DNA from: Coemansia sp. RSA 487
Taxonomy: Eukaryota > Kickxellomycota > Kickxellomycetes > Kickxellales > Kickxellaceae
Length of the DNA stretch: 64,000 nucleotides
Direction: 5' to 3'
Assembly (NCBI GenBank): GCA_027577595.1
Contig: JANBRJ010000010.1
Span: 62,001-126,000 of the forward strand
Shown piece after piece: positions 42,180 to 64,000 of this stretch. The translations under genes were made by a program, and so were the position numbers. The stretch's first letter is position 1, and each line of letters begins with the position of its first letter. The notes beneath the pieces are model-generated. The model was not told the DNA's origin and ran no database searches. It worked only from the letters and a program-made list of their open reading frames with translations.

Positions 42180-43616
42180 TTAGCTGGAAGCGGGGCGGCC
42201 GTTGATGCGGATGCGCTTGAGACCACCGTCGGGGTACATGGTGAATTTGACGTGGGTGAAAGCGACGTCCTTGGGGCCAGTGGAGTCAAAGTAGTGCTGG
42301 GCGTCGGCGGTCGTAGGAACGCCAGCAATGATCTCGGTCCACTTGGCGTCGTCGGCCGGGATGTCCTCAGATGACACGGTTCCGTGCAGCGTGACCAGCG
42401 GCGGGAAGTTGCCGCAGAAGTGCCTGGTGTCGATCTCGACCTTCTCGACGTATCCGGGGATGCCCAGCTTCAGGATGGCCCAGTCGTTGTGGTTGGGCGT
42501 GCGCGAGCGGCGCGTCTCCCATCCGTCGCCCATGGTCTTACCACGGCCCGGCAGAACCAGGTTGGATGGCGAGCAGAAGTGCTGGTTCGAGCAAGCGACG
42601 GCGCGTCCGCCGTTGCCGACAAACGCAAGGTCAACGAGTCCGTCAGAGTTGGTGACGACGGTCTGAGGCACAACTTGACCGTACACGCGCAGCCGAGCAA
42701 TGCCACCGTCAGGGTAGTTGTTGACACGCAGGTGCGTGTATGTCTTGGTCGGCGCCTCGTACACAAAGTAGTGGTGCGAGCCCGGGTTCATGTTGACCTT
42801 GGGCAGGATCTCTTCGAACTGTGCTTTGCCGGCACGCACATCCTCCTCGGTGGCATTGGCACCCTCGATGCTGACCACGGGTGCGTGGTTGCCGGTAAAG
42901 TGCGACGTGTCGACGTCAAAGCCGTAGATGACGCCGGCATAGCCGAGCTGGACGATGGCCCAGTCGTAGTTCTTGTTGTGGCGGCGGGTCTCCCAGCCGT
43001 CCATCCACTTGCCGCGGTCCGTGAACTCCTCGGGCAGGAACACCGCCTCCTCGTCCTTGAGCATGTTGGCTGCCTCGGCGAAGAACTCATCGGTGAACGA
43101 GATGATCTTGGAGCCAAGGGAAACGCTGGCAAGGTCTATAAGGAAAGAAACGAGCAATGTGACAGTTCACAGAGAGCTGATTAGTATTGTGTTTGGCTTG
43201 ATCTAGTGTGCATGTGTAAGTTCTGAGGAAGCTTGCGCCGACTATCACATTGCAATCGCCAGTTTTTTTTTTTTTTGGAAAAACCATGGTCATGCATTAT
43301 CGTAGGTAGATCGGGAAGTAGCAGAGGGAGTCCTAACAGCTGCACAGCTGGCATCCGTCTTCTGTTTTTATGCCGTCGGACATCGTCACAGCATATGATG
43401 GGCGCAGATAACACTCGGAAGAGCAAAATATAACCTAAAGATGCTCCATAGATGGTGCAACAATCATTTTCTTTCACAATACAAACGCTGGAAATGAAAG
43501 CCAGCTGCAACATCAGAAAAAACATTGTGCAAAAGATACGTACTTGACTTGCCCTTGAGGGCTGCGACCTCAGCAGAGTCGGCCTGGACGGTACGGAAAG
43601 CAGGTGCAGCGGGCAT
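42180..43616 (-). CDS. DAL2: Allantoicase
   Basis: There are two exons: 43616-43544 (24 codons plus one base, donor TCAA|GTACGT) and 43135-42180 (acceptor TTATAG|AC), total 342 residues, normal for the family. The start MPAAPAFRTVQADSAEVAAL continues as GKSNLASVSLGSKIISFTDEFFA. The protein is two similar jelly-roll repeats, each with W-E-T-R-R (GWETRRHNKNYDWAIVQLG; GWETRRSRTPNHNDWAILKLG). Each is followed by a D-T-x-H-F-x-G-N motif (VDTSHFTGNHAP; IDTRHFCGNFPP). It hydrolyses allantoate to ureidoglycolate and urea, so the organism probably uses purines or allantoin as a nitrogen source. The second exon is GC-rich, a sign of high expression or codon bias. Confidence 0.94.
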
Positions 43617-45115: not shown

Positions 45116-48100
45116 TCAGCGTACAGCCAGTTGCTGCGGATGTGCAATGTCCTGGAACTTGGAACTTGGAATGTTGTGGTTTACAATCGACGACTCCGAC
45201 GCAATAGCCGTGCTGCTATCGATTCTGTCGGTGACGTCTGCATGGAGCAGCTTGATGAGCCACGACGGGATCTTGGGGATGCTGCCAATGACGCGCCTTG
45301 TGATTTCCACCCACACGCCCTTCTCGTGCTCGGTCTCCGTGTAGAACTCAATCGATCCGCCCTTGCCGAACTCGATGCTGAAGCTGTGCTGCATGCCGTT
45401 GTCTGCCGCGCCATCACCCGAGTGCTCGCTGACGATCCCAGAGTCCGTGCGCCCTGCAGAACGCTCCGCTGCAGATGCCCCTGCATCGTGCGAGTTGTGG
45501 ATCTCGCCGCGCGCACGCTTCTGCGTCCGTCCGCGGCGCATGGTCATCTTCTGGAGGGTCGGGTCTGCAATGTCAACCAAATCTGCAGGCTCCGAGTCCG
45601 ACGCATACTCGTGGCCAGGCGCCTGCGCAAACTGGCGCGGATTACGTCCAGAAATGCCGGCGGCTGCTGTCACTCCGCCGTCACGCGACGAGTGGTCAGA
45701 GTTGTTGCGCTTGTGCGTCATCCGACGCCGTACTCTCGCAGAGCGCATCAGATCGGAGCTGCCAAACAGCTGGTTCGATCCCAGAAGCGGCGTGGCTGCT
45801 GCACGACTTGTCCGGTTTGCCTGGTTATCGACGATTCGCGTGGCATCGTTGAGATCGATAAAGCACCGCGGCTCCATCGTCTCTTCGTGGTAGGCAAACA
45901 AGAACCCGCCGATGAGCCTAAAGTAGCGGCGCCGCCAGAACCGCGTGTCGCCACCCCGCTGGCTCATATATCCAGAGTTCAGCGTGCGGTTGTGGAAGTT
46001 ACACACCTCCATGGCCATCTCGCACTCCGACAGAGTCCGTGGAAGCTCCTCTTCGTGGAAGAGCGGGCATTCGGGAATATAGAATAGCTGCAGCTGGAGT
46101 CTCGCTCCCTTGCGGCTCTCCCAGACATTCTCCACATCCCACGAATCAACAAGCCCGTGAAGGAAGACCTCATCGATCATTTCGCCAACATGTACAACCG
46201 CCACACCGCTTGTCTCCTCCTTGAACTTTGCGTGCGCAAGTCCCTTGTGCGAGGGAAGATAGCCAGTCATCTCCGAGCCAGGTTCGTAGAACACGCTTGA
46301 CGGCGCCTGTGTGGCATTGAGCGAGCGTGGATCATTAAAGCCACTATAATCCTGTTGTGTACCGCTCCGTTCGCTGGCATACCTCTGACTGGCTTGAGTC
46401 ATTAGCGCGCTCGACACACGCTGAGGATACCCCGGTCCTAGTGGAGTCCGAACGGCTGCTCCCATCATTCTGTCAGTCGGCCATCCCTTGCGAACTCCAG
46501 GCGGCCCGCGAGGCGGCCCGCTTGCAAAGTCAAAGATGCTGTCCGCCGAGCTTGAACAGTTGAGTCGGTTGCCACGCGATCTCGTGTTGCGCCGAATTAG
46601 TCTCTTCAGAAGCGGCGGGACACAGCCAGGGTCGCCCGGGTTCCGGCGCGACATGTTGCTGCCGCGTCCGTTTTTGTAGATAATAGCATCGCTACGAAAA
46701 CGCATCCACATTGTTATCGATACGCTTGGATCTGTCAGGATGCGAAACTCTTGGTTGATTGTGGTTCCGCTCTCGCCGGCAACGCTCACCGGGGTTGTTG
46801 CCAGAGTGTCAATGCCATTGCGGATAACAAAGTACACCGAATCCGTTTTTGCCTCAATGTCCTCGATGCTTAATATGCGCATGTAGAGATAGCCCGACTT
46901 TGCGGTTGCCTTTGGAGGTACAAAGAACGGCCCTGCAGGGATTCCATTCAGCGGCGAAACGTACTGCGGGATCATTGACGGCCTGACTGTGCCGGCTGGC
47001 ATCTCGTATGAAAACTGCCCTGCAGAGCGCACGTTCACCGATCCCATCACATCTGCCCTGACCTTGACATCCAGCTCATCGATCTCACTCATCACGCGCT
47101 CCGAGAATGTTGTGCCGCGCGTGCGAAGAACAAGCTTCTTGCGAGGAAAGAGCAGCGAAGGATCAAACTCTGGCACGGGGTGGTCTTTGTCGCCAGGCAC
47201 TTGGAATTCCTGCGAAATCGGAGACACAAACGCCTCATCCTGGAAAGACTGCCGTTGGCCGCGGGCCTGGTCGATGCTGTCGTCGCTGTCGCTCTCCGAC
47301 TCTGAAATCGGAATTTCAACGCTATCCAAGAACGACTTGCGCGTTCCGTACGCACTGACTTCGTCTTTGTCGTCAGCATCCTCAGAGCCAGGTTCTTTAA
47401 ACATCCCTTGAATGCCAGACATACGAGGCCGTTTACTCAAAGGTTTGATAGTGCCACGGCTGGCCGACAGTTGCGCCATATCCTCAGCCATCGTCGCATC
47501 AAGCTCCTCGCGCAGCCGAAGCGACGATATAGACGATGACCCTAGGCCACGCTTCAGCTCTGGATGTTCAGTAGTACGATTGTCCCGGAGCTCCTCGACC
47601 ATCAGCTTGTCACGCTCCGCAAGCATCATCTGCATTTCCTTGGGCGTCAGCGGATCAATGAAGCTGTTTTCCATGAACCAGAGAGGCGAAATCATCTTTG
47701 TTGGTTTCTCGGGTGGCAGTGTGATTCCTTTCTTCGCCGCCTCTCTTTTCATCCGCTTTTCCTTACGCAATTCCTCGCGGTAATCTCGGATTTCAAGCCC
47801 AGCCGGTCTATAACCTTCGAAATCCTGCGAACGCAAGAACAGGATCTTAGGTATGAGCTCCTCATCAGTTGACAGATCTGCTTCGAGTTCATCAACGGTA
47901 GTCACGGGGGCAGGTTGGCTAATCACAGGCGGTTGGATTTGCTCCATTTCGGGAAGATTGCGCCGTTGTTCAGCACTCTGCCCTTTAGCCATGCCCTTGC
48001 CTTTATCTACGCCCTTTCCTTTACCAGCGCTAGAGCCACCACCACTGCTGCTGCTAGCTTCGTCGTCCGCCTTATCGAAACTAAGATTGGATAGAGAGCT

Positions 48101-51100
48101 CTTCTCCAACCGCCTGCGAGGGCCAACGCGGCTTGTCGATGCAATTGGCGTGCGGGAACGCGAGTCACTATCAGCCAAGTGACCCGGCTCACTCTCAGGG
48201 GCATCTAGCGGCTGCATGTAGATTACACGACTAGCAGAGGAGCTGGGCCGACCAGAGCCAAGAATATCGCTATGATCAAAGCTGCTGCGGCTGGCCATTG
48301 TGCTGTTCTCCTCAGATGTGTACCCAAATATCACGTTTGGATCATATGAGTTGGAGCTGATTGAAGGGGTGTGCGACTGAGTATCGTCATCGAGGATAAA
48401 GGAACCAGAGCTCACCCCGCCGAATCCCGAAAATCTAGGCGATATTGGGGATTGAGGCACATTCTCTTGATCTACAACATCCGATGACTCTATTGACTCA
48501 AAGCCCGAGCGCAGAGGTGAATTTGGATGGTCTTTGTTATAGAGCTCAGTAACAAGTGCACGCAGTCCACGCGCTGACTTGGAATTTGCTGAATGCGCCT
48601 GTGCCCAGGAGTCTAGTTCTCCGCCTCGACCTTCTCTGTCCCGAGACTCTGGTGCCAATGATAGATCTGGGGAGGAGCCCTGTTTCGAGGATTGGGCATA
48701 CGGATCGTCAACATTGCCTGTGGCATCTGCAGAAGATGCCTTCTGTGTGTCGCTGATAGCAATACTGGTGTTTCTGCTCTCTTCCTCTTCTTCTTCGACT
48801 GTAGACAGACCAAACAGTGTCTTGGTGTTATATCGGGGACGCGAAGGCATAAGAGTGTGGAAACCCACATTATCTATGGCGCTATCACTTTGCTCCTCGG
48901 AAGACTGAGCTGATCCGTGCACATATAGAGCTTCAGCCTCCTGAGACTGCCCTGGCTCTACTGCATATGGGTCATCCTCAGTGTCATTGACGGTGCGAAA
49001 TCCAAGCTCGATGTCAGAGGCGCCAGGAATGGGCCGCTGCTCCATCTCAGAATGTTCCTGCTGGTCCTTGTCTGAAGAAAAATAGGTGTGCTTTTCCTCG
49101 ATGGAGCGTGCCTTCATACGCCGCTCAAAACGCTTTGGATTCATGTTGTACTGCGCGAGAAGCCCAACATTCGTGTTTTCCGGCGCACTATCAAGAGGGG
49201 TTGACTCTGGAGTGCTTAGCGTATCCAGCGACGAAAGAATATGGAGTGAAGAATCCTCACCAGAAGCGCTTCCACCTCCGGATCTGCCGCCGCTGCTACC
49301 GCGTGAAATAAGGACAGCACCATCGGACTCAGACTGTGCAAGCAGTCCGTGTGTGGACCTCAGGGGCTGTTCCAAGTTATCAACAGCAGCAGCAGAGGCG
49401 GGCATTCTCAGACTATGCCCTTCATTTGCGGCACCGTCGTTCTGACCAACATTGGCACGCTCGCTTGACGGGGGAAGGGCAGCACGGCTCCTAGATAGGG
49501 GTCGTTCGACACCTACTGGCGCTATGTTCACGTTTGCAGATCTCGTGGCAGTGGCTACGCCTGAACTTCGAGATCCCAACTGCTCTTCACCCCGACGCCC
49601 TAAAAAAGAAGATGTGGTGGTTTCTTCGGCAGGAGCTGCCAGAATCTGCTTGTCGCTGTTGCCCTCGTCACGGGATGCAGCCTGAGAGCGAGGCTTGAAC
49701 CTGCTACTGGATGCATGGGCTGTGCCTTTTCTATCAGTGCTGCTGGGTCCCGAATCTGATGAAGAAAGCTGAACCTTGGCCTTGCGCGATTTAGCCGGTG
49801 ACCTACTAGATGACTGTGGTGGAGATTGGACGTTCGAGTCGCTTGAGGTCAGCAGAGCTTTGCGGCTCTTGACAAACCCTCTATTGCTAATCCGCTCGAG
49901 AGTACCACTCTTGCGACGATTAGCCAGCTCCCGAAAACGCCTTTTGCGCTCTGTTTCTGAGTCAGGCCGAGCCTCAGCACGAGTGTGCATTTGAGTAGGA
50001 GCAGATTGGTGGATCATTTCCTTGCTTGACGAGCTTTTCGACTCTGTGGACGAGAATATCGACGATCCGATATGGTCGCTGGATCCGCGTGAATCAAAGA
50101 GCATGGATGGCGAGTCTCCAAGATTAGCCGCAAGGCCACGTCCACGTCCAGGAACCGGGCTGCTTGTAGGCGTAGACGTGCTTCCGTTGCTGTCGGTGCC
50201 TGTTGAGTCAAGAATAGCTGCGCGGGGGTTTGGGCTTGGTTTATCATCGTCGCCGTCACCATTGTTACCGCGACGGCCACCGCTACCAGAACCGCTGCCG
50301 CCATTACCCTTACCGCTACCAGCACCGCCAGTTTCACCATAGTCATCAGCACCACCCGAGGGATCGTCATTCCCGCCACCAGGGGAACCTTTTCCGTTCC
50401 CAGCGCTGCCATGGCTCTCATGAGCACCTGTGGTCTCTCCAGCCGTCGTGGGCAGACCATGGCTGCCAGCGCTGTGTGAGCTAGAAATGCTGTTTGAGCG
50501 AGCAGCCGGCTTGAAGCTCTTGGTCAAACCACCCAGAGGAGCAGACACAGCCCCCGATGCGCTCTTCTCCTTGGACTCCATATCAGCAATGGCTGTGGTA
50601 ACAGAGCGCATAGCAATAGTCAGCTTTGGCGGCGACACGCCAGCCTGGCGCTCAAAGTTCTGAGACAATGCAGCAACACGCCCGATGCGCGCTGTGCTAG
50701 TGCCCGACAGAGGCTTTGTCGACCGTGCGCCATCTCCACGCTTACCAAGCATTTGGAATGGTGGAGGAGCTGCATCCACAGGCGTGCTCATCGCACGAAT
50801 GCGCTGGCTGTTGAACGAAGGAGATGGAGCAGGACTTGCCGAAAAGTGGTCAACCGAGTCTGATGTGGGCGTTATCTCTGGCGTATTACTGCCAGAAACC
50901 TTTGCCGGCGAATTAGACACAAGGTTGCGTGTCTTCAGACTTGCCAGTGATGGAGAGATCTTCCTTGCTGACGATGCCGGTCGTGAAGGCTCTGGTACCT
51001 GAGGTAGCTGTGGTGGATCGGGTGCAAGATTCGCAAGCGTATTGGACCGCGTGCGTCCATTGATTGTCGCACCACTAGTAACGGACACACCACGGGTGTG

Positions 51101-54100
51101 CTTTGAAGGAGAACTGCGGGACCCCAACTCTGCATCGCGGCTACGGTCGCGCACTCCCAGTGCGCTGGGGCTCCGCGAGTGCACGAAATCCAATGCGCTT
51201 TCGCTCCGCTTGTATGAATGGCGATAGCGACTAAGCGCCATGGGTGACTGGTGGGCACTATCGTTCTCGATATCTCCGTCATCGCTGCTCTCAACGCCAT
51301 CGCTTGCTCCATTGGAACGGGTTGGCATGTCCGACCGCATAGCATTGGCAATGCCTATGCGCGCACTTCGTTTTCCAGGCGAGCCACTGCGCATGGTGTT
51401 GCGGTTAATCAGTGTCTGTAGGTACTGATCTCGCTTGTCTCTGGTAAGTGGCACGTCGGCGGGTAAACTCGGCGGCTCGGCTGACGGTGACTCAAGCTCA
51501 CTTTCGCTAACATCGGTTTTGGATGCCTTTTCATCGATGTTCTCCATGGACATCTTCTGCTTGACAAACGAAAAAGACGGATCTGAGCTGAATCCCGACG
51601 TATCGTCCCCAAGAAGCTCTGCAGTTGCGCGACCTTGGCGGCGTCCTATCCGTCCGGCATTGAAATCCACAGATGGAAGCGAGGGGAAGTCATCGCCCTT
51701 GGAGTTGGGCTCCATAGTGATGGGGGTATGGAACTCGGGCGTACCGTGCTCAGATGAGGATGAATCATCGTCATCATCCGATGAAGGGTGACCCTCTTGT
51801 TCCAATGTACTCGTCCCGGCGTCAGCAGGTGAATCGACAGGCATATCAAACAGCGAGGCAGCTGTAGGGCGTGGTGCAGCCACTGGAGAGCTTGAACGCG
51901 TACTGACAGCGTCCTCAGCTTCGAAATCGGTGGCCGGTGTTCCCTGCTTCTCATCAGTCATGTGGTGGTTATCATCACGAGCAGGGGAAGGGAAATCAGG
52001 ACGCCTGCCATTAGGCTGTGTCCTGAATCTGCTCATTGCGTCAACGCCGCGCCCTGGCTTTGAGCTATCGTCATCCTTCGCCGTTTCTGGCACCTGTGGT
52101 GCAGGGTTCGACACTGTGCCAAAGCTCGAGTCATATGGCGGAGAAGAAATGACAGTTTGTGACGGCGATCCACTGCTTCCGTCAAATGTGGTGCTTGTAG
52201 GGCTCACATGCGAATTCGGTGAAGTTGGTGAGGTGGGGGAAATAGGCATGGCGCCGCTCGCTGTTTGGTTATCCTTGGAGACACTGACCGTCGAGGTGTT
52301 TGAAAACGCAATACTGTTTGACGAGCCAACACTGGCAAGGCTGCTCTGTCTGCTGGTCGTTTTGCCCATGATCATCTCGTATAGCGAGTCGCGAAGAAGA
52401 AACGGACTCGATGCTCTCTTCGAGTGCTCATCTCCCTTCGCATTGCTGTCATCTTGCCTCAGCTGTTCAAGAGCTTTTAACGACCTTCCGCTGTCATCAA
52501 TTCCGCGCGGCATATTCTCGTGAATCATGACAGGGAATGCCGAAATGGCTGTGCTAGCAGGCGCAGCGGTTTTTGTGTTCATAGAAGCCATCGCCATTGC
52601 GTTGTTAATCGAGCGCATGTTGATAGAAGCCGAGGACGAATCAGACGAAACAAACGAGATCTGCTTCGATGGCACCTCACGATCATTCACTGGCGCGCTG
52701 CCGTTATGAAAGGAAAGTCCCGAACCAGAGCGGTAGTATGATGGCTCAAACTGAACCATGTCATCATCATCGCTAAATATATCCTCGAGTTTGCTGACAT
52801 CCGTCGAGTTGAGATCCTCCTTCAAGCGCATTGTAGAGTTGGCGCTGTCAGAGGGAGTGGGATCATGCTGGCCATCATCTGCCATATCCTGATCATTGAA
52901 TCCTGCATTTGCAGCCGGACTCACAGCTCCGTCACTATAGGCTACACCGTTGGCGGTATGGAATGAGACGTTGCTAGCCGTGCTAGACAGCGGGTGATGA
53001 AGACTGCTGGGCGATTCGGGCTTTTCAATGTGGTTGCTGGAGCTTATGTTGGAGCCACGGCTGTTTGGACGGCTGCTGTCCTTGTTGTGCAGTGAGTTTT
53101 CAAGAGCGCGCTTGCGCATAGGCATGGCCTCAAATGACTTTGAGGATAGGTTGCCTTTGCTGCCACTTCCACCTAGCCCCAAGCTGCTTCTATCGCTAGA
53201 GGAAACGACAGAACCGCTGTCAGTTTGATCCCCGTCGGACGAGTCGTCGTCTGATTCCCTGTTGTCAAACTCGTCGTCCGCATGGTTGAGCTCCATACGC
53301 TCTGGAGAACCTTCTGGGGTTGGCGGGTGCATTTCGCGCATGCTGTCAGCAAACTGCTTAATATACGAGGATTCAGACACTACGTCCCCATCTTCGCTGA
53401 GCTGATCCAACGCGCCAATATTGAATTCCTCCTTGGCAGCCTTTGTACGAGGGCTGTCTGGAACAGACATCGACGAAGGCTCCATGTCGTTGATGTCGTC
53501 CATGTACTGGTTGCCTTCATGATTTTCTTCGGGGGAGTAGTAGTGCATTGACTTCTCCTGTGGCAGGGATGTTGCCTGAGGCGCCTGGTACCTTGTTCCG
53601 CGTACTTGTCCCTGGTACATTGCCAGCCACTGCAGCGTGGGCTTGTCGTTGGTTATGCCACCGGGAAGGAAGCCCATGCGGTTGGAGATATCCACTGCCG
53701 CGCCCTGTCTCAGCAGTCGCTCGACCAGGTTTGCATCGTTATAGAATGCAGCGAGGTGAAGCGTAGTGTTCTGCTGGCGGCCAAAGAAATGCGAGTCAAG
53801 CTGCTCGGGCGAGATGGCGTCAATAAGAGCGCCAAGAATGACTTCGCGCACAGCTACATGCTCCTTCATCTGGTCAGCAGACATCGACGCCATTTGCTCG
53901 GTCTGAGCGCCGTTACCAAGGCGCCAGTTTGCATACGCGTTCTTGTAACCCATGATGGCGACTTGGAGCCCGTCCATTCCAGTGGTGTCGTTTCCGAGCC
54001 ACTCAGACGCTATGTGTGTGAGAGCCATGTGGAACGGCGTTGACTCGTGTCGCCGCATGTTCAGGACTTCGGGGTGGTCAGCAAGAATGGAGTGCACCTG

Positions 54101-54971
54101 GATAGAGCGGCCTTCGGTGATTGCTCCAAACCACTGCTTGTACAGCATCTGGGGCCATTTGGGCTCACTGGACTTTCCTGGGAGCCCGAATTTGGAGTGT
54201 CGCTGATGCTGAGGCGCAGAGCCGCTCATGTGTGGCTGGCGCGAAGGCTGTGTGCTGGACGAAAAGTCAATATGTGTTGGTACTTTCATGCCCTACAATC
54301 TGAGTGGTGTTTGTTTGCCAGTGTAGAAAATAAAGTCCGCGGAACAAGCTTCCCAATTTAGTAATACTGCTTGTATGATGGCGATTTTAAAAGACCACCA
54401 CAAAGGATTTTAACCAGACAGGCAATAAAAACGTGCAACATCCTCAATTCGCTACTCAGCTGATCAATGGACCGTATGTGTGCACATGATAGAGACACAC
54501 AAACTAGACATTGGTCTGTGCCAAACAATCGGGGCTGTAAGACCATTTGCCAGACTGACTCCACTTTGGTCTTTGTAGCTCTTTTTAAGCGGTTATTGTA
54601 TTCCCTCTCTCTGACTCTTTGGGTTTGAGCCTATAGCAAACAAGCAAGCAACATCGCCTCTTCCCGGCAATTGTGAGGCATACCAATAAGGAAAGAGCAG
54701 CAAAACGTATATAGAAAGCATGTGCATGTGGCGGGTTGCTGAGACAATTGCAACTTAAAGGCCAACTGTCATTTTCAAGAAATTTCTAGGGGAGTATACC
54801 TACCGGTGTAGAACCAATTCGTGAAGACGAAGGGTGGGATGGCGACCTTGGTATTTCCATAGGACCAACGACAGATTCGGGAACATCCTCTCCATCCGAC
54901 GGATCAAAGTCGCTGTCCGAGTCGTTGCTCTGACGACGTGTTTTGCGCGGGTACTGCTGGCGAAAGGGCAT
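45116..54971 (-). CDS. Giant ankyrin-repeat plus anillin/Bud4-like PH protein
   Basis: There are two exons: 54971-54804 (56 codons) and 54292-45116. The donor is ACACCG|GTAGGT and the acceptor GATTGTAG|GGCATG, phase 0, giving about 3114 residues. Residues about 105-290 hold weak ankyrin repeats (ESTPFHMALTHIA; TTLHLAAFYNDANLVERLLR). About 2100 disordered Ser/Asp-rich residues follow, including a Gly/Ser/Asn block near 1370-1400. The C-terminus resembles anillin/Bud4: a C2-like start near 2520 (SGYLYMRILSIEDIEAKTDS, TINQEFRIL). A PH domain follows from about 2827 (GYMSQRGGDTRFWRRRYFRL) and ends near 3060 (GVWVEITRRVIG), split by a roughly 110-residue loop. Anillin-type proteins tie septins and membrane at the division or bud site. 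An N-terminal ankyrin module is unusual for that family. The function is inferred from the C-terminus. Confidence 0.85.
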
Positions 54972-60144: not shown

Positions 60145-60862
60145 ATGGCCCACTCCAACATCTGGTTCTCTCACCCCCGTCGCTACGGTAAGGGTAGCCG
60201 CGCCTGCCGCATCTGCGTCCACCGTGCCGGTCTGATCCGCAAGTACGGTCTGGACCTCTGCCGCCAGTGCTTCCGCGAGAACGCCAATGCTATTGGCTTT
60301 GAGAAGGTAGACCAAAATTCATATTCTCCTCATTTGAGGAACAAATCGACCAAATTGCTTGGAACATTTTGCTTGGTCGAGCAAGCGAGGAAATCCTTCT
60401 TTTCCGAACAGGAAACAAGGCTCGCTTGTAACTTTAAAGTTCCTATCGGGGGAAAGGAGCTGTTCACACGTCTTTGATCTTGTTGAAGCCATTTGCGCGT
60501 ATTGCCACAAGTCTATGTTGTTATCTGTTGCAGTCACTGAGGTGAGAGAGGGCGTCCCTTGGTGCAAAGAATTATCTGTTTGAATAGCAGATATCTGCTG
60601 CCAGATCAATAGAGACTATGTGTGGTGCCACATACCGTGCCTCTAGCTTTTACTGCAAAGCAGTGTACAGCATATTCTCTCTCCCCGATACCATCCTTGC
60701 TATTGCGAGAAAGAGAGGACAGCGCAACCTCTTCTTCTTTCTCGCAACAATGTCAACATTTTGCATGTTCTTTTTTTGATGCACTGCTAGCTTTAGAGCG
60801 CTGTGAATACTGATTGTGTCCTGTAACTCGTTTGTCTATGCTTTCCCATGTAGACCCGCTAA
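60145..60862 (+). CDS. RPS29: 40S ribosomal protein S29 (uS14)
   Basis: Exon 1 (60145-60306) encodes 54 residues starting [20 protein letters not shown]. It carries the zinc-binding Cys pairs (CRIC and CRQC) and the conserved [17 protein letters not shown], ending GFEK. The donor is GAGAAG|GTAGAC. The frame would otherwise run on as non-family sequence, so a short last exon is needed. CATGTAG|ACCCGCTAA at 60854-60862 adds Thr-Arg-stop, for exactly 56 residues, the usual length. The usual fungal C-terminus is similar (GFNKYR, GFTKHR). This acceptor is the best candidate by eye but is not proven. The 547-nt intron is large and rich in inverted repeats. Confidence 0.88.
60327..60441 (+). ncRNA. 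Structured segment in the RPS29 intron (candidate intronic RNA)
   Basis: Consecutive inverted repeats follow the donor: TCCTC/GAGGA (60327-60340), CGACCAA/TTGGTCG (60347-60379), and CAAGCGAG...CTCGCTTG (60382-60428). The last contains inner pairs CCTT/AAGG and TTTCC/GGAAA around a GAACA loop. A palindrome AACTTTAAAGTT follows at 60430-60441. Ribosomal-protein introns often host snoRNAs or autoregulatory folds. No clear C/D boxes or H/ACA ends were found, so the class is unknown. Confidence 0.35.
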
Positions 60863-61273
60863 AGCCCCTTCTTGTTGGAAAAGGGAAGAGATCGTTACGC
60901 TGCTTTATTTCTTTCCCGCTCTCTGTCTTATTTGGCAGAGCGGTCAGGCGTTGTTACCTCTGTTGTGCATGGAGCCTGGAGGCAGGCATAGCGTTCTTTT
61001 TATGGATTCGGCTGAAGGTTTATTGTTTTACCACATGCCGGCTCTGTCCTATCTTTCCAGATGCTTTGCAGTTTCTTTCTAATATAAACAACCAAAAACA
61101 CAACCTTTAGCAATTAAAGAGAGGCATCAGTTAAACGTTCACTTGTTTGTCTTATTGCTGAACATTGGATATTGGATATTGGATATTTTGTTATGTACTT
61201 GAAGGAAAAAGGATAGACTGAAAAGGAGGAGAAAGGGATAAGTAATATACATGACGAGTGAAAGAGAGAATAT
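60863..61273. other. Intergenic, 411 nt
   Basis: The space between the RPS29 and CHAP gene 3' ends. TTGGATA is repeated three times in tandem near 61168. No gene is seen, unless the last RPS29 exon lies here instead. Confidence 0.45.
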
Positions 61274-61990
61274 TTACACCTTGAGATGAATATAGTTGAA
61301 TGTGCTCGCTGGAACAGTGCGGGTGCCGTACTTGTTCTTGGTCCAGTTGTACTCCTCGATGGTGACCTGGCTTCCCGAAACCTTTGCAACCCAAGCGACA
61401 TGGCCAGCAGAACCAGCATTGCTCTGAGCGACACATCCGGCTACAGGCTTGCTGTTGACTGGGACGCCAGTCTTGCGCGCTGCCTCGTCCCAGGTGTTGG
61501 CATTGCCCCAGTTGGGTCCCTTGTAGTGGTTGTGGAACTTGATTCCCAGGCGCGAGTTGATGCGCCACGCGACGAAGCTGGTGCACTGGCACTTGAAGTA
61601 GCGCCACGGATCAACGCCGCCGCACTGCCCAGGGTACGGGTAGTCATCCTTGATCGGGCCTGGTACCTTGCCGCCGCCGTTGTTGCCGCCACCAGTGCTG
61701 CCGCCACTGCACTTCTGAGTGACATAGCCGGTGGATCCGGTCTTAAGGTAGTAGTCCGATACGTAGCAGCCGGCAGTGGTCTTGTCCCACAGCGTGTTGC
61801 CCTTGATGTTGGTGCCGGATGTCTGGCAGCTCAGGCTGATGTTGTCCTTGGCCGTGTATGTGCGCACAACTTTGCCACTGGTGCTCGGCGTCGACCGGCA
61901 GTTGACCGTCGTGGCCTTGTAGATGTTGTATCCTTCGGTGACCGAGGCGAGCCCGACGATGCAAAGAGCGACAAGAGAGTAGAGCTTCAT
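61274..61990 (-). CDS. Secreted SH3b-CHAP peptidoglycan hydrolase
   Basis: 238 residues. The signal peptide is at about 1-20 (MKLYSLVALCIVGLASVTEG). A bacterial-type SH3b module lies at about 22-95 (NCRSTPSTSGKVVRTYTAK; GCYVSDYYLKTGSTGYV), then a Gly/Ser/Asn linker and a CHAP domain at about 112-238. Catalytic Cys136 is in CQCTSFVAWR and His197 in GHVAWVAKV, with the polar partner in IEEYNW. The WGNANTWDEAA motif is that of staphylococcal and streptococcal CHAP amidases or endopeptidases. It would cut bacterial peptidoglycan, acting outside the cell. CHAP is rare in fungi, so an origin by transfer from bacteria is inferred. It is divergent from the GH24 gene, with which it shares its SH3b module. 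Confidence 0.92.
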   Translation of the reverse strand: MKLYSLVALCIVGLASVTEGYNIYKATTVNCRSTPSTSGKVVRTYTAKDNISLSCQTSGTNIKGNTLWDKTTAGCYVSDYYLKTGSTGYVTQKCSGGSTGGGNNGGGKVPGPIKDDYPYPGQCGGVDPWRYFKCQCTSFVAWRINSRLGIKFHNHYKGPNWGNANTWDEAARKTGVPVNSKPVAGCVAQSNAGSAGHVAWVAKVSGSQVTIEEYNWTKNKYGTRTVPASTFNYIHLKV

Positions 61991-62140
61991 TGTTTGCGAT
62001 AGATGGAGATGTTGCTATTGTTGTTGCTGTTGTTGTTGTGCGATTGCCGCAGAATCGTTGGCAGAGTAGATATTGTGCTGTGTGTGAATGTTGTGGATGA
62101 TATGGAAAAATGCTATTCGAATACGCCAGATATCTTGTCA

Positions 62141-62148
62141 TTTATATA
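62141..62148 (-). promoter_or_regulatory. TATA box of the SH3b-CHAP gene
   Basis: TATATAAA on the minus strand, 151 nt upstream of the ATG at 61990. Confidence 0.5.
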
Positions 62149-63038
62149 CGCACCAGATACACCACATGTCTTTAAGTTTTTTTTTATTTAATTACACAGC
62201 TGTACTTTTTGCTTATACCACACACTAATAGCGCATATTTGGCACATTAGCGATTGTGTTCAAGCGTCTAGGGTTGTCAAGCAAAATTCCATATATAGGC
62301 AGTCTTATACTCGATATGCATAACGAAGTGATTGTTGTGACAACCTTTCTGGTGTTACTTATTCCACAAGTCTGCTTCCAGGCATTCGCTAATCAACTAA
62401 GTAGGTTGTCTTCTGGAAGATATGTGGTTAGATGCGCGGTTTGAAAATTGCTGGGATATATGTGCTCTGTCTGGTATTTTTAGAAATGCATAGCAATAAA
62501 TAAAACACCAATGCCTTTTTACAGGCGATGATCATCAATACACATGCAGGTGAATGCAATATCTACAGCCATCTATTTTTAAAAAGTGCGTTTAAATGTT
62601 TGGATTTAACCAGGCTTGATTTTCTTGATTGGTGGAGCATGCACACTTTCTACTGGCATGAAACTAAAACGCTGCTCTAAAAATAGACCGTTTTTACATG
62701 GAGATTTATGAAGAACAATGTCTAACTGCTTTATTTTTAGCAAAGGATGCTACGTAACGACATGAGATATCCACGCATTTGGTGCCCAGTATTCATAGAC
62801 CGTCGCTAAATATAGACATGCTATACACACGAGCATATTTAGGCTCTATCTAGAACAGCATACACACGTTTCTCAACGAAAAAGAGATAACCAAAACACT
62901 GCGCTGGATAGATAGAATAAACAGCTATTCTATTCAGGCATCCTTCCTGCATCGTATACGGAGGGTTGTCAATATACTTTGTCATTTGCAAATGGAATGC
63001 CACATATTCTGGAGACAAACAATTGCCCGAAAATCGGG

Positions 63039-63046
63039 TATAAAAG
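63039..63046 (+). promoter_or_regulatory. TATA box of the SH3b-GH24 gene
   Basis: TATAAAAG, 166 nt upstream of the ATG at 63205. Confidence 0.5.
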
Positions 63047-63204
63047 AAACCGATTGCGCCCTGCAATTCAATCATTCAAACACACATCTTATCAACGATA
63101 CCAGCAACAGAAACAGAAACAGCATCAGCTTTACCAGCAACGACTCTGCAACTACACACCTCTCCTGCAATTTACTACAACTCATTAGCTATCCAATTCC
63201 AACA

Positions 63205-64000
63205 ATGAAGATCGCCGCCGTTACCGCAACCGCAGCCTTTGTCCTGGGCTCTTTTGCTCCTGCCAATGGCTACGCCATCACAGGCGACGTCGTCAATTGC
63301 CGCTCAGGCCCCGGCACAAGCTACAGCGTTAAAACGACATACAAGAAGGGCCAGAACGTCTCGGTCTCCTGCCAAACGGCTGGCACCAGCGTCAATGGCA
63401 ACTCCATTTGGGACAAGACTGCCGACGGCTGCTACGTGTCCGACTACTATGTGTCCACAGGCAGCAGCGGCTATGTGACCACAAAGTGCAGCACCGGAGG
63501 CAGCACCGGAGGCGGCAGCAGCAGCTACTGCCCAAACATCAACAGCGCCGGCATCGATATGGTTGCGCAGTTTGAGGGCTTTGTGGCTAGCCCCTCGCCC
63601 GATCCTATTGGCCTCCCAACCGTCGGCTACGGCCATCTGTGCAAGCAAAAGAACTGCGCCGAGGTCAAGTATAAATTCCCGCTGACCACCACCACCGCCA
63701 AGCAGCTTCTCAACGACGACCTGCCTGTATACACAAAGTGCCTTGCCGGCTACCTCAACAGCAAGCCCAAGCTCAACGACAACCAGTGGGCGGCGCTGAC
63801 ATCCTGGGTGTTCAACGTCGGCTGCGGCAACGCAAAGACCTCGACGCTTGTCAAGCGCCTCAACAACGGCGAGAGCCCCAACACCGTCGCTGCGCAGGAG
63901 TTGCCCAAGTGGAGAATGGCCGGCGGCAAGGTTATGCAGGGGCTTGTCAACCGTCGCGCTGCCGAGGTCAAGCTTTTCAAGACCGCCTCCTCCAAGCAGG
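63205..64000 (+). CDS. Secreted SH3b-GH24 lysozyme (3' end beyond the window)
   Basis: 265 complete codons are visible and the gene continues past the window edge, so its stop is not seen. The signal peptide is at about 1-22 (MKIAAVTATAAFVLGSFAPA). The SH3b module at about 25-95 is a close relative of that in the CHAP protein (NCRSGPGTSYSVKTTYKKG; GCYVSDYYVSTGSSGYV). A Gly/Ser linker leads to a phage-type GH24 lysozyme domain from about 110. Candidate catalytic Glu124 is in AQFEGF and Asp133 and Thr139 precede VGYGH. The conserved NDNQWAALTSWVFNVGCGN and the late LVNRRAAEVKLF follow, so only a few residues are probably missing. It would cleave the MurNAc-GlcNAc bond of bacterial wall. A bacterial or phage source is inferred. 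Confidence 0.92.
   Translation, partial: MKIAAVTATAAFVLGSFAPANGYAITGDVVNCRSGPGTSYSVKTTYKKGQNVSVSCQTAGTSVNGNSIWDKTADGCYVSDYYVSTGSSGYVTTKCSTGGSTGGGSSSYCPNINSAGIDMVAQFEGFVASPSPDPIGLPTVGYGHLCKQKNCAEVKYKFPLTTTTAKQLLNDDLPVYTKCLAGYLNSKPKLNDNQWAALTSWVFNVGCGNAKTSTLVKRLNNGESPNTVAAQELPKWRMAGGKVMQGLVNRRAAEVKLFKTASSKQ

Follow-up and report, generated by a model that had tools for sequence, protein, structure and literature searches.

In a stretch of 64,000 nucleotides from the fungus Coemansia sp. RSA 487 (contig JANBRJ010000010.1, positions 62,001 to 126,000 of the forward strand; hereafter the window), two genes for secreted proteins stand head to head at the right-hand end. Both products begin with an SH3-like module, followed in one by a CHAP domain and in the other by a GH24 domain. 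We conclude that the genes probably encode a divergent pair of fungal lysins, predicted to share one kind of wall binder, with SH3 and CHAP parts of bacterial descent. This conclusion is carried by the architecture and family membership of the proteins, by the conservation of residues for catalysis and for disulfides, by the purifying selection seen in the CHAP protein and by kinship with actinobacterial proteins. The head-to-head arrangement, proposed in an initial annotation made from the letters alone, was confirmed by the open reading frames (ORFs), by Pfam profiles and by start codons 1,214 bp apart.

Architecture of the two proteins

61274..61990, minus strand: gene of the secreted SH3-CHAP peptidoglycan hydrolase, 238 amino acids in one open frame (ORF and translation; Pfam CHAP, E = 2.3e-16)
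61931..61990, minus strand: putative signal peptide at the start of the CHAP protein (residues 1 to about 20), judged from the sequence by inspection
61709..61930, minus strand: predicted wall-binding module (SH3-like) at residues 21-94 of the CHAP protein, with cysteines 31, 55, 75 and 94
61346..61609, minus strand: CHAP catalytic domain (C136, H197, E212)
61991..63204, no strand: intergenic region between the divergent start codons, 1,214 bp
62141..62148, minus strand: TATA box upstream of CHAP, TATATAAA, spanning -158 to -151 relative to the start codon
63039..63044, plus strand: TATA box of the GH24 gene, TATAAA, at -166
63205..64000 in the window and on to 64020, plus strand: gene of the secreted SH3-GH24 muramidase, 271 amino acids, ending 20 bp past the window (L003:3020)
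63271..63489, plus strand: predicted wall-binding module (SH3-like) at residues 23-95 of the GH24 protein, with cysteines 32, 56, 76 and 95
63568..63966, plus strand: GH24 catalytic domain (E124, D133, T139)

The CHAP gene is read on the minus strand from an ATG at 61990 to a stop codon that ends at 61274. Its product consists, in order, of a signal peptide, an SH3-like module, a Gly-rich linker and a CHAP domain whose profile score passes the curated cut-off (PF05257; 60.5 bits versus 26). The GH24 gene starts with an ATG at 63205, and its stop codon, at the window-equivalent positions 64018-64020 (L003:3018-3020), was taken from the contig, which continues past the window. In this protein the signal peptide and SH3-like module are followed by a Ser/Gly linker and a GH24 domain (Phage_lysozyme, PF00959; 134.5 bits versus a cut-off of 22.3, E = 3.3e-39). 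The catalytic residues, with positions from the alignment, are C136, H197 and E212 in CHAP and E124, D133 and T139 in GH24, the latter in the E-8-D-5-T spacing of the T4 and P21 lysozymes. The active-site residues were intact in both window proteins when aligned, and the catalytic Cys and His of CHAP were kept in all five paralogues of the genome.

Peptidoglycan is the known substrate of both families, and by family both proteins are secreted peptidoglycan hydrolases, as the initial annotation proposed. The nearest NCBIfam models of the CHAP domain, ScrM (85 versus 400 bits) and PcsB (45 versus 450), were both far under their cut-offs; the bond cut by CHAP would be an amide bond in the peptide part, through either amidase or endopeptidase activity. 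The computed isoelectric points of the mature proteins, 9.5 for SH3-CHAP and 9.2 for SH3-GH24, would fit binding to anionic walls. The CHAP protein is under purifying selection, because the paralogous gene on contig C90 encodes a protein that is 97% identical over 168 residues at a synonymous divergence (dS) of 0.26, with a nonsynonymous to synonymous ratio (dN/dS) of 0.08. The same ratio was 0.29 when the window gene was compared with C93b.

A shared SH3-like module

Five motifs said in the initial annotation to be common to the two modules (VNCRS, SCQT(S/A)GT, WDKT, GCYVSDYY and TGS(T/S)GYV) were all found in both translations. The modules were 60% identical over 73 columns and could still be aligned as DNA (74% over 150 bp, E = 3e-9), indicating that their likeness is not due to chance. 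Both fell under the curated cut-off of 27 bits for SH3_3 (PF08239), with 14.9 bits in the CHAP protein and 20.9 in the GH24 protein. Three further proteins described below (P0004, C59 and C93a) gave no SH3_3 match at E 0.01, and a bacterial protein, L052, scored 28.4.

The best matches of both modules in the PDB were fungal cell-wall-binding domains (8b2s, 8b2f, 8b2g and 8b2h). Cysteines 32, 56, 76 and 95 of the window GH24 protein align with the Cys9-Cys53 and Cys33-Cys72 positions of 8b2s. All eight fungal SH3 modules aligned, five from this genome and three from the PDB, kept the four cysteines and, after the first of them, an Arg equivalent to Arg10. The similar placement of TATA boxes was also borne out: TATA(A/T)A words lie at -158 and -156 of the CHAP gene, with a third at -307, and at -166 of the GH24 gene, the background in the window being 0.71 such words per kb per strand.

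Proposed mode of action

After export, the N-terminal module, with cysteines for two disulfides, would grip the peptide parts of bacterial peptidoglycan, and the flexible Gly/Ser linker would allow the catalytic domain to reach its bond. GH24 is expected to cut the glycan strand between N-acetylmuramic acid and N-acetylglucosamine (MurNAc-GlcNAc), with CHAP acting on the amide bond, and both enzymes together might dissolve the wall faster than either alone. Two wall enzymes with such complementary cuts and one binder would be of practical interest as lysins.

The enzymes could alternatively serve for feeding on dead bacteria and not for defence, a use proposed for this enzyme class in the text of Moroz et al. 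(PMC10394673), and all of the sequence-based evidence fits feeding equally well. A report that Coprinopsis cinerea makes GH24 lysozymes in co-culture with bacteria (PMC9119436) points to defence, in another fungus. We regard feeding as a serious possibility and lean only slightly away from it.

Bacterial relatives of the SH3 and CHAP parts

Scanning genome contigs with the CHAP domain yielded 75 candidate stretches, of which three loci were confirmed at 49-52% identity. These were a stand-alone CHAP in Actinomadura and, as judged by eye, a coiled coil with CHAP in Kroppenstedtia and a GH25-type domain with CHAP in Thermoactinomyces. Nine of 396 genomes of the phylum of Actinomadura, Actinomadura included, matched at 1e-10. 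One actinobacterial genome (G485) encodes two proteins, L052 and L060, with the same build as the window protein, namely signal peptide, SH3, linker and CHAP, and with CHAP matches of 145 and 142 bits. Their SH3 modules differ from the fungal ones in having the Cys33/Cys72 pair without Cys9/Cys53 and about four extra residues before the WDK motif. No SH3 of the same kind was seen at the CHAP loci of the other eight matching actinobacterial genomes. When 398 genomes of the phylum of Kroppenstedtia were searched by profile, eight showed weak hits, the best at 5.1e-6 over 45 positions.

Related SH3 modules were also found on plasmids, together with CHAP in Rhodococcus and with M23 in Pseudalkalibacillus and Burkholderia. 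In the eight bacterial SH3 modules extracted, the weaker hits L043-L050 being excluded from the count, the Cys33/Cys72 pair was seen by eye in all eight and the Cys9/Cys53 pair in none. Of four stretches that a contig scan picked out from the SH3 alignment, none was confirmed; this says little, because the single search pattern held Cys53, which the bacterial modules lack. Scans of viral contigs confirmed none of 33 stretches with SH3, none of seven with GH24 and none of 11 with the bacterial SH3-CHAP, and one of nine with CHAP (39% identity).

The SH3 of each of the three fungal proteins submitted also matched the NCBIfam model of GsmA (NF038016; E = 2.6e-8, 2.3e-11 and 1.4e-10), a sporangiospore maturation cell wall hydrolase of actinomycetes for which the literature search brought up no paper. 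The likeness to GsmA was confined to the SH3 stretch, with 33.6, 43.7 and 41.1 bits versus an equivalog cut-off of 240.

In a CHAP tree of 24 rows, the five fungal CHAP domains formed one clade (97/99), which grouped with those of Actinomadura and G485 (82/93); a single clade of the fungal and G485 domains was not rejected (p = 0.51). The fungal SH3 modules formed one clade (99/99) in a 12-row tree, obtained by dropping five rows, three of them long-branched (C93a, C74 and L045) and two near-duplicates (L063 and L065). The bacterial rows of these trees were chosen for likeness to the query from a small sample, so that the donor is not fixed.

These comparisons support, in outline, a bacterial ancestry of the SH3 and CHAP parts, as well as a single fungal SH3 stock that would have gained a second disulfide. 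The uptake of a bacterial module put forward in the initial annotation thus stands as to ancestry, through the SH3-CHAP proteins of G485, the CHAP tree and the GsmA match. SH3 and CHAP may have come from bacteria, most likely actinomycetes, perhaps already combined in one SH3-CHAP protein. Within fungi the module would have acquired its second disulfide, a candidate fungal addition, and have been joined to GH24, GH184 and other partners. The comparison links a peptidoglycan-binding module already published from fungi to bacterial proteins in which a related module precedes the same enzyme, as it does in the window protein, so that the origin of the module can be tested.

The proposed local duplication and exchange of the catalytic part

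The initial annotation had further proposed that one bacterial module was taken up and duplicated head to head, and that the catalytic part of one copy was then swapped. In favor of such a history, the window modules are adjacent, divergent and similar in both protein and DNA, and the SH3 of the CHAP protein finds its best identity in that of its GH24 neighbor (60%, versus 58% to C59). In addition, sisterhood of the two modules was not rejected by the approximately unbiased test (p = 0.184 with 17 rows and 0.177 with 12).

The SH3 of the GH24 protein, however, is nearer to ascomycete modules, those of P. virgatum (70%) and T. terrestris (66%), than to its neighbor (60%). The best SH3 trees did not join the window pair, and forcing their sisterhood cost 4.9-7.5 log-likelihood units; the tree of SH3 modules called for earlier thus has them apart in its best form with p about 0.18 for the alternative. 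Both builds occur elsewhere, SH3-GH24 in Trichophaea saccata and SH3-CHAP in bacteria, so that it would be simpler to suppose two proteins that were assembled independently and came to lie next to each other. The module is also found at no fewer than seven places in this genome, and CHAP has its own five-gene family here. Local duplication with a catalytic swap is therefore not favored and, as judged from these comparisons, probably did not happen.

A wrecked second copy of the pair

60991..64177 (window part to 64000), no strand: duplicated block, with an inverted copy at C10:24483-25096

The remnant of a second copy lies inverted on the same contig, 98 kb from the window pair (C10:24483-25096; L022:3483-4096). 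It matches window positions 60991-61448, the C-terminal end of CHAP and its 3' flank, at 88%, and this part is directly joined to an 89% match to 63998-64177, the last GH24 codons and their 3' flank. The 2,553 bp matching 61449-64001 are missing, and the joint lies on a shared AGGC (4-bp microhomology). The fragment still reads as the end of a CHAP domain, with the conserved EEYN altered to EKYS.

On the simplest reading, duplication affected about 3.2 kb that contained nothing but the pair, and a later microhomology deletion stripped the second copy of its promoters and of both SH3 modules, leaving only the last quarter of the CHAP gene and very little of the GH24 gene. The pair thus behaved as a unit at least once. 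A 9-base direct repeat, CATTTTTCA, flanks the remnant (L022 3463-3471 and 4103-4111) and may have arisen as a target-site duplication when the copy was inserted. This repeat was looked for post hoc, and one as long occurred in 11 of 2,000 shuffled pairs and in 23 of 3,000 pairs taken from the genome with the same spacing. The borders of the window block had no common word of more than 6 bases, and none of the four stretches that border the duplicated block contained repeats within itself.

Several points weigh against reading the locus as a lysin pair of bacterial descent. The sole other copy of the pair is this deletion remnant. The two upstream regions were alike no more than expected by chance, since 81 of 200 first-order resamplings scored as high, and a shared promoter sequence was rejected; co-regulation is suggested by position alone. 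Only one of the 396 sampled genomes supplied SH3-CHAP proteins that matched CHAP strongly. The fungal CHAP domains grouped with Actinomadura alone were also not rejected (p = 0.136), and the fungal SH3 modules were only weakly monophyletic (63/76) in the 17-row tree. What is inferred comprises activity, synergy and co-regulation, which way and in what order transfer went, and whether the enzymes are used on living bacteria or on dead ones.

The SH3 and CHAP families across the genome

A search with the GH24 protein placed the SH3 module at seven or more sites in the genome, the window pair included. Profile searches gave five CHAP genes (all five PF05257 matches above the cut-off, from six candidates), one GH24 (PF00959), and no GH25 or NlpC/P60. 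Other SH3-CHAP genes lie on C59, with a long Ser/Thr/Asp linker, and on C93 near 12 kb. Those on C90 and on C93 near 65 kb are truncated by the contig ends, and of the SH3 only its end is visible. The last 77 bases of these two ends (C90, L027:9397-9900; C93, L026:9388-9900) are exactly shared and lie inside the SH3-CHAP gene, the pattern that assembly with k = 77 leaves where it breaks off in a repeat common to both; these genes may face each other head to head, their 5' parts being nearly identical. A whole-protein search of the genome found no separate 5' half of either. The 3' flanks of these copies have diverged: that of the C90 copy had a faint likeness to that of the window gene (score 30 of 604, reached by none of 200 shuffles), and the C93 copy had none (199 of 200 shuffles reached its score). 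Together with its paralogues, the pair offers a compact set for studying how fungi handle bacteria.

L024:2608-3210 (C74), minus strand: P0004, SH3 protein without an enzyme, with a signal peptide, a Ser/Asp/Gly-rich stretch and a hydrophobic C-terminus

In P0004, hydropathy was 1.53 over the first 20 residues and 1.51 over the last 20, and 72% of residues 96-178 were S, T, D, G or N. P0004 may be a peptidoglycan binder that lacks an enzyme and is held by a glycosylphosphatidylinositol (GPI) anchor. Predicted structures were poor, with mean pLDDT of 44.0 for the CHAP protein (five related rows) and 45.5 for P0004 (single sequence). On a Pseudalkalibacillus plasmid, a secreted protein made up of such an SH3 alone (L061:1744-2100) adjoins an M23-SH3 enzyme, a bacterial counterpart of a lysin accompanied by a binder that lacks an enzyme.

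An enzyme-free, possibly surface-anchored binder would, if true, bear on how fungi sense bacteria. On a wider and rather unlikely view, a bacterial wall module might have become a general part for sensing and killing bacteria, targeting five or more CHAP lysins and one GH24 muramidase to peptidoglycan, with the divergent unit of two of them duplicated whole and the GPI-anchored C74 protein serving as receptor or adhesin, a fungal counterpart of the extracellular pattern-recognition receptors of animals and plants. Fungi seemingly lack pattern-recognition receptors of the leucine-rich repeat type, according to the text of a review (PMC9119436).

The own-wall alternative and the fungal origin of the locus

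If the enzymes acted on the wall of the fungus itself, their role would be in chitin remodelling. The known peptidoglycan substrate of both families weighs against such a role, and chitin offers CHAP no peptide to cut. A survey of early-diverging fungi files GH24 under cell wall remodelling in its text (PMC8778642), whereas the T. saccata module bound Micrococcus cells and not Avicel cellulose, as described in the text of PMC10394673. We consider an own-wall role very improbable.

The genes are single open frames with bacterial-type domains, as contamination or a recent unassimilated transfer would predict, but this explanation is negligible given that the 284-kb contig is continuous and bears eukaryotic genes to the left and right of the pair, that the genes have TATA promoters, host-like base composition and paralogues in the same genome, and that their SH3 is of the four-cysteine fungal kind and the GH24 protein 62.5% identical to an ascomycete enzyme. 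The locus is genuinely fungal on the basis of its gene content and the fungal module. The window corresponds to C10:62001-126000 in an assembly of 17.8 Mb and 184 contigs, and the contig extends 62 kb before and 158 kb beyond it. To the left of the pair lie an ABCF-type ATPase and RPS29, and to the right allantoicase and a Trm8-like methyltransferase. The GC content at third codon positions was 0.77 and 0.78 in the pair and 0.67-0.74 in three neighbors. When ten more frames of the window were scanned, one was without a match, and the others included genes for a Glyco_transf_15 mannosyltransferase, CDC20/Fizzy, adaptin, syntaxin-18 and an EH-domain protein. No Rfam or tRNA match was found in the window.

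Other observations concern the surrounding genes. The first exon of RPS29 lies at window positions 60145-60306, and the remainder apparently follows, by eye, after an intron of about 550 bp. Two allantoicase genes stand about 22 kb apart, one of 328 codons at window positions 42183-43166 on the minus strand and one of 502 amino acids at L003:4524-6029 on the plus strand; the latter bears a long Lys/Ala/Glu-rich C-terminal extension. One open frame of 3,058 codons spans window positions 45119-54292 on the minus strand.

Comparison with known systems

The SH3-like module is already published as a fungal muramidase domain, of which the initial annotation was unaware. It was described as the cell-wall-binding domain (CWBD), a four-cysteine peptidoglycan-binding module of fungal GH24 and GH184 muramidases (Moroz 2023, PMC10394673). 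According to the text of that study, the T. saccata CWBD binds M. lysodeikticus cells, its removal cuts activity (drop in optical density from 0.50 to 0.17), and the domain has two disulfides and contacts triglycine via Arg10.

The closest known system to the window GH24 protein is the T. saccata CWBD-GH24 muramidase (8b2s), which has the same four-cysteine SH3, short Gly/Ser linker and GH24 domain. The two proteins were 62.5% identical over 232 columns, and their catalytic domains 64% over 156. The window gene differs in coming from another fungus and in standing head to head with a CHAP gene. Its SH3 is also nearer to GH184-linked modules (70 and 66%) than to that of T. saccata (57%). The CWBDs of GH184 muramidases (8b2g and 8b2h) are the same module, with the four cysteines and the Arg, and score 53 and 55% against the SH3 of the CHAP protein; they differ in being attached to GH184 and not to CHAP or GH24. 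Phage and plasmid sets gave more distant relatives of the GH24 protein: 1,245 of 50,697 phage records and 517 of 72,556 plasmid records matched, all below 60%, with 36-41% in the 15 rows listed for each set. By these measures of likeness, the GH24 protein is an ordinary new member of the known fungal CWBD-GH24 muramidase family.

The partner domain of the CHAP protein falls outside the published list of CWBD partners, which in the Fig. 5 legend of PMC10394673 comprises amidase, C40, M23, GH24, GH73 and GH184. The word "CHAP" occurs nowhere in the main text of that paper; the label amidase in the legend might cover other folds. A literature search lacking most subscription papers and supplements found no paper on a fungal SH3-CHAP protein, and databases may hold such proteins. 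Fungal GH25 muramidases are comparable as fungal cell-wall enzymes of bacterial, probably actinobacterial, origin (text of Metcalf et al. 2014, PMC4241558); they differ in belonging to another enzyme family and in being reported from Dikarya, and the Coemansia genome has no GH25 match. What is new relative to these systems is the SH3-CHAP gene with its bacterial look-alikes, the duplication of the pair as a block, and the enzyme-free SH3 protein.

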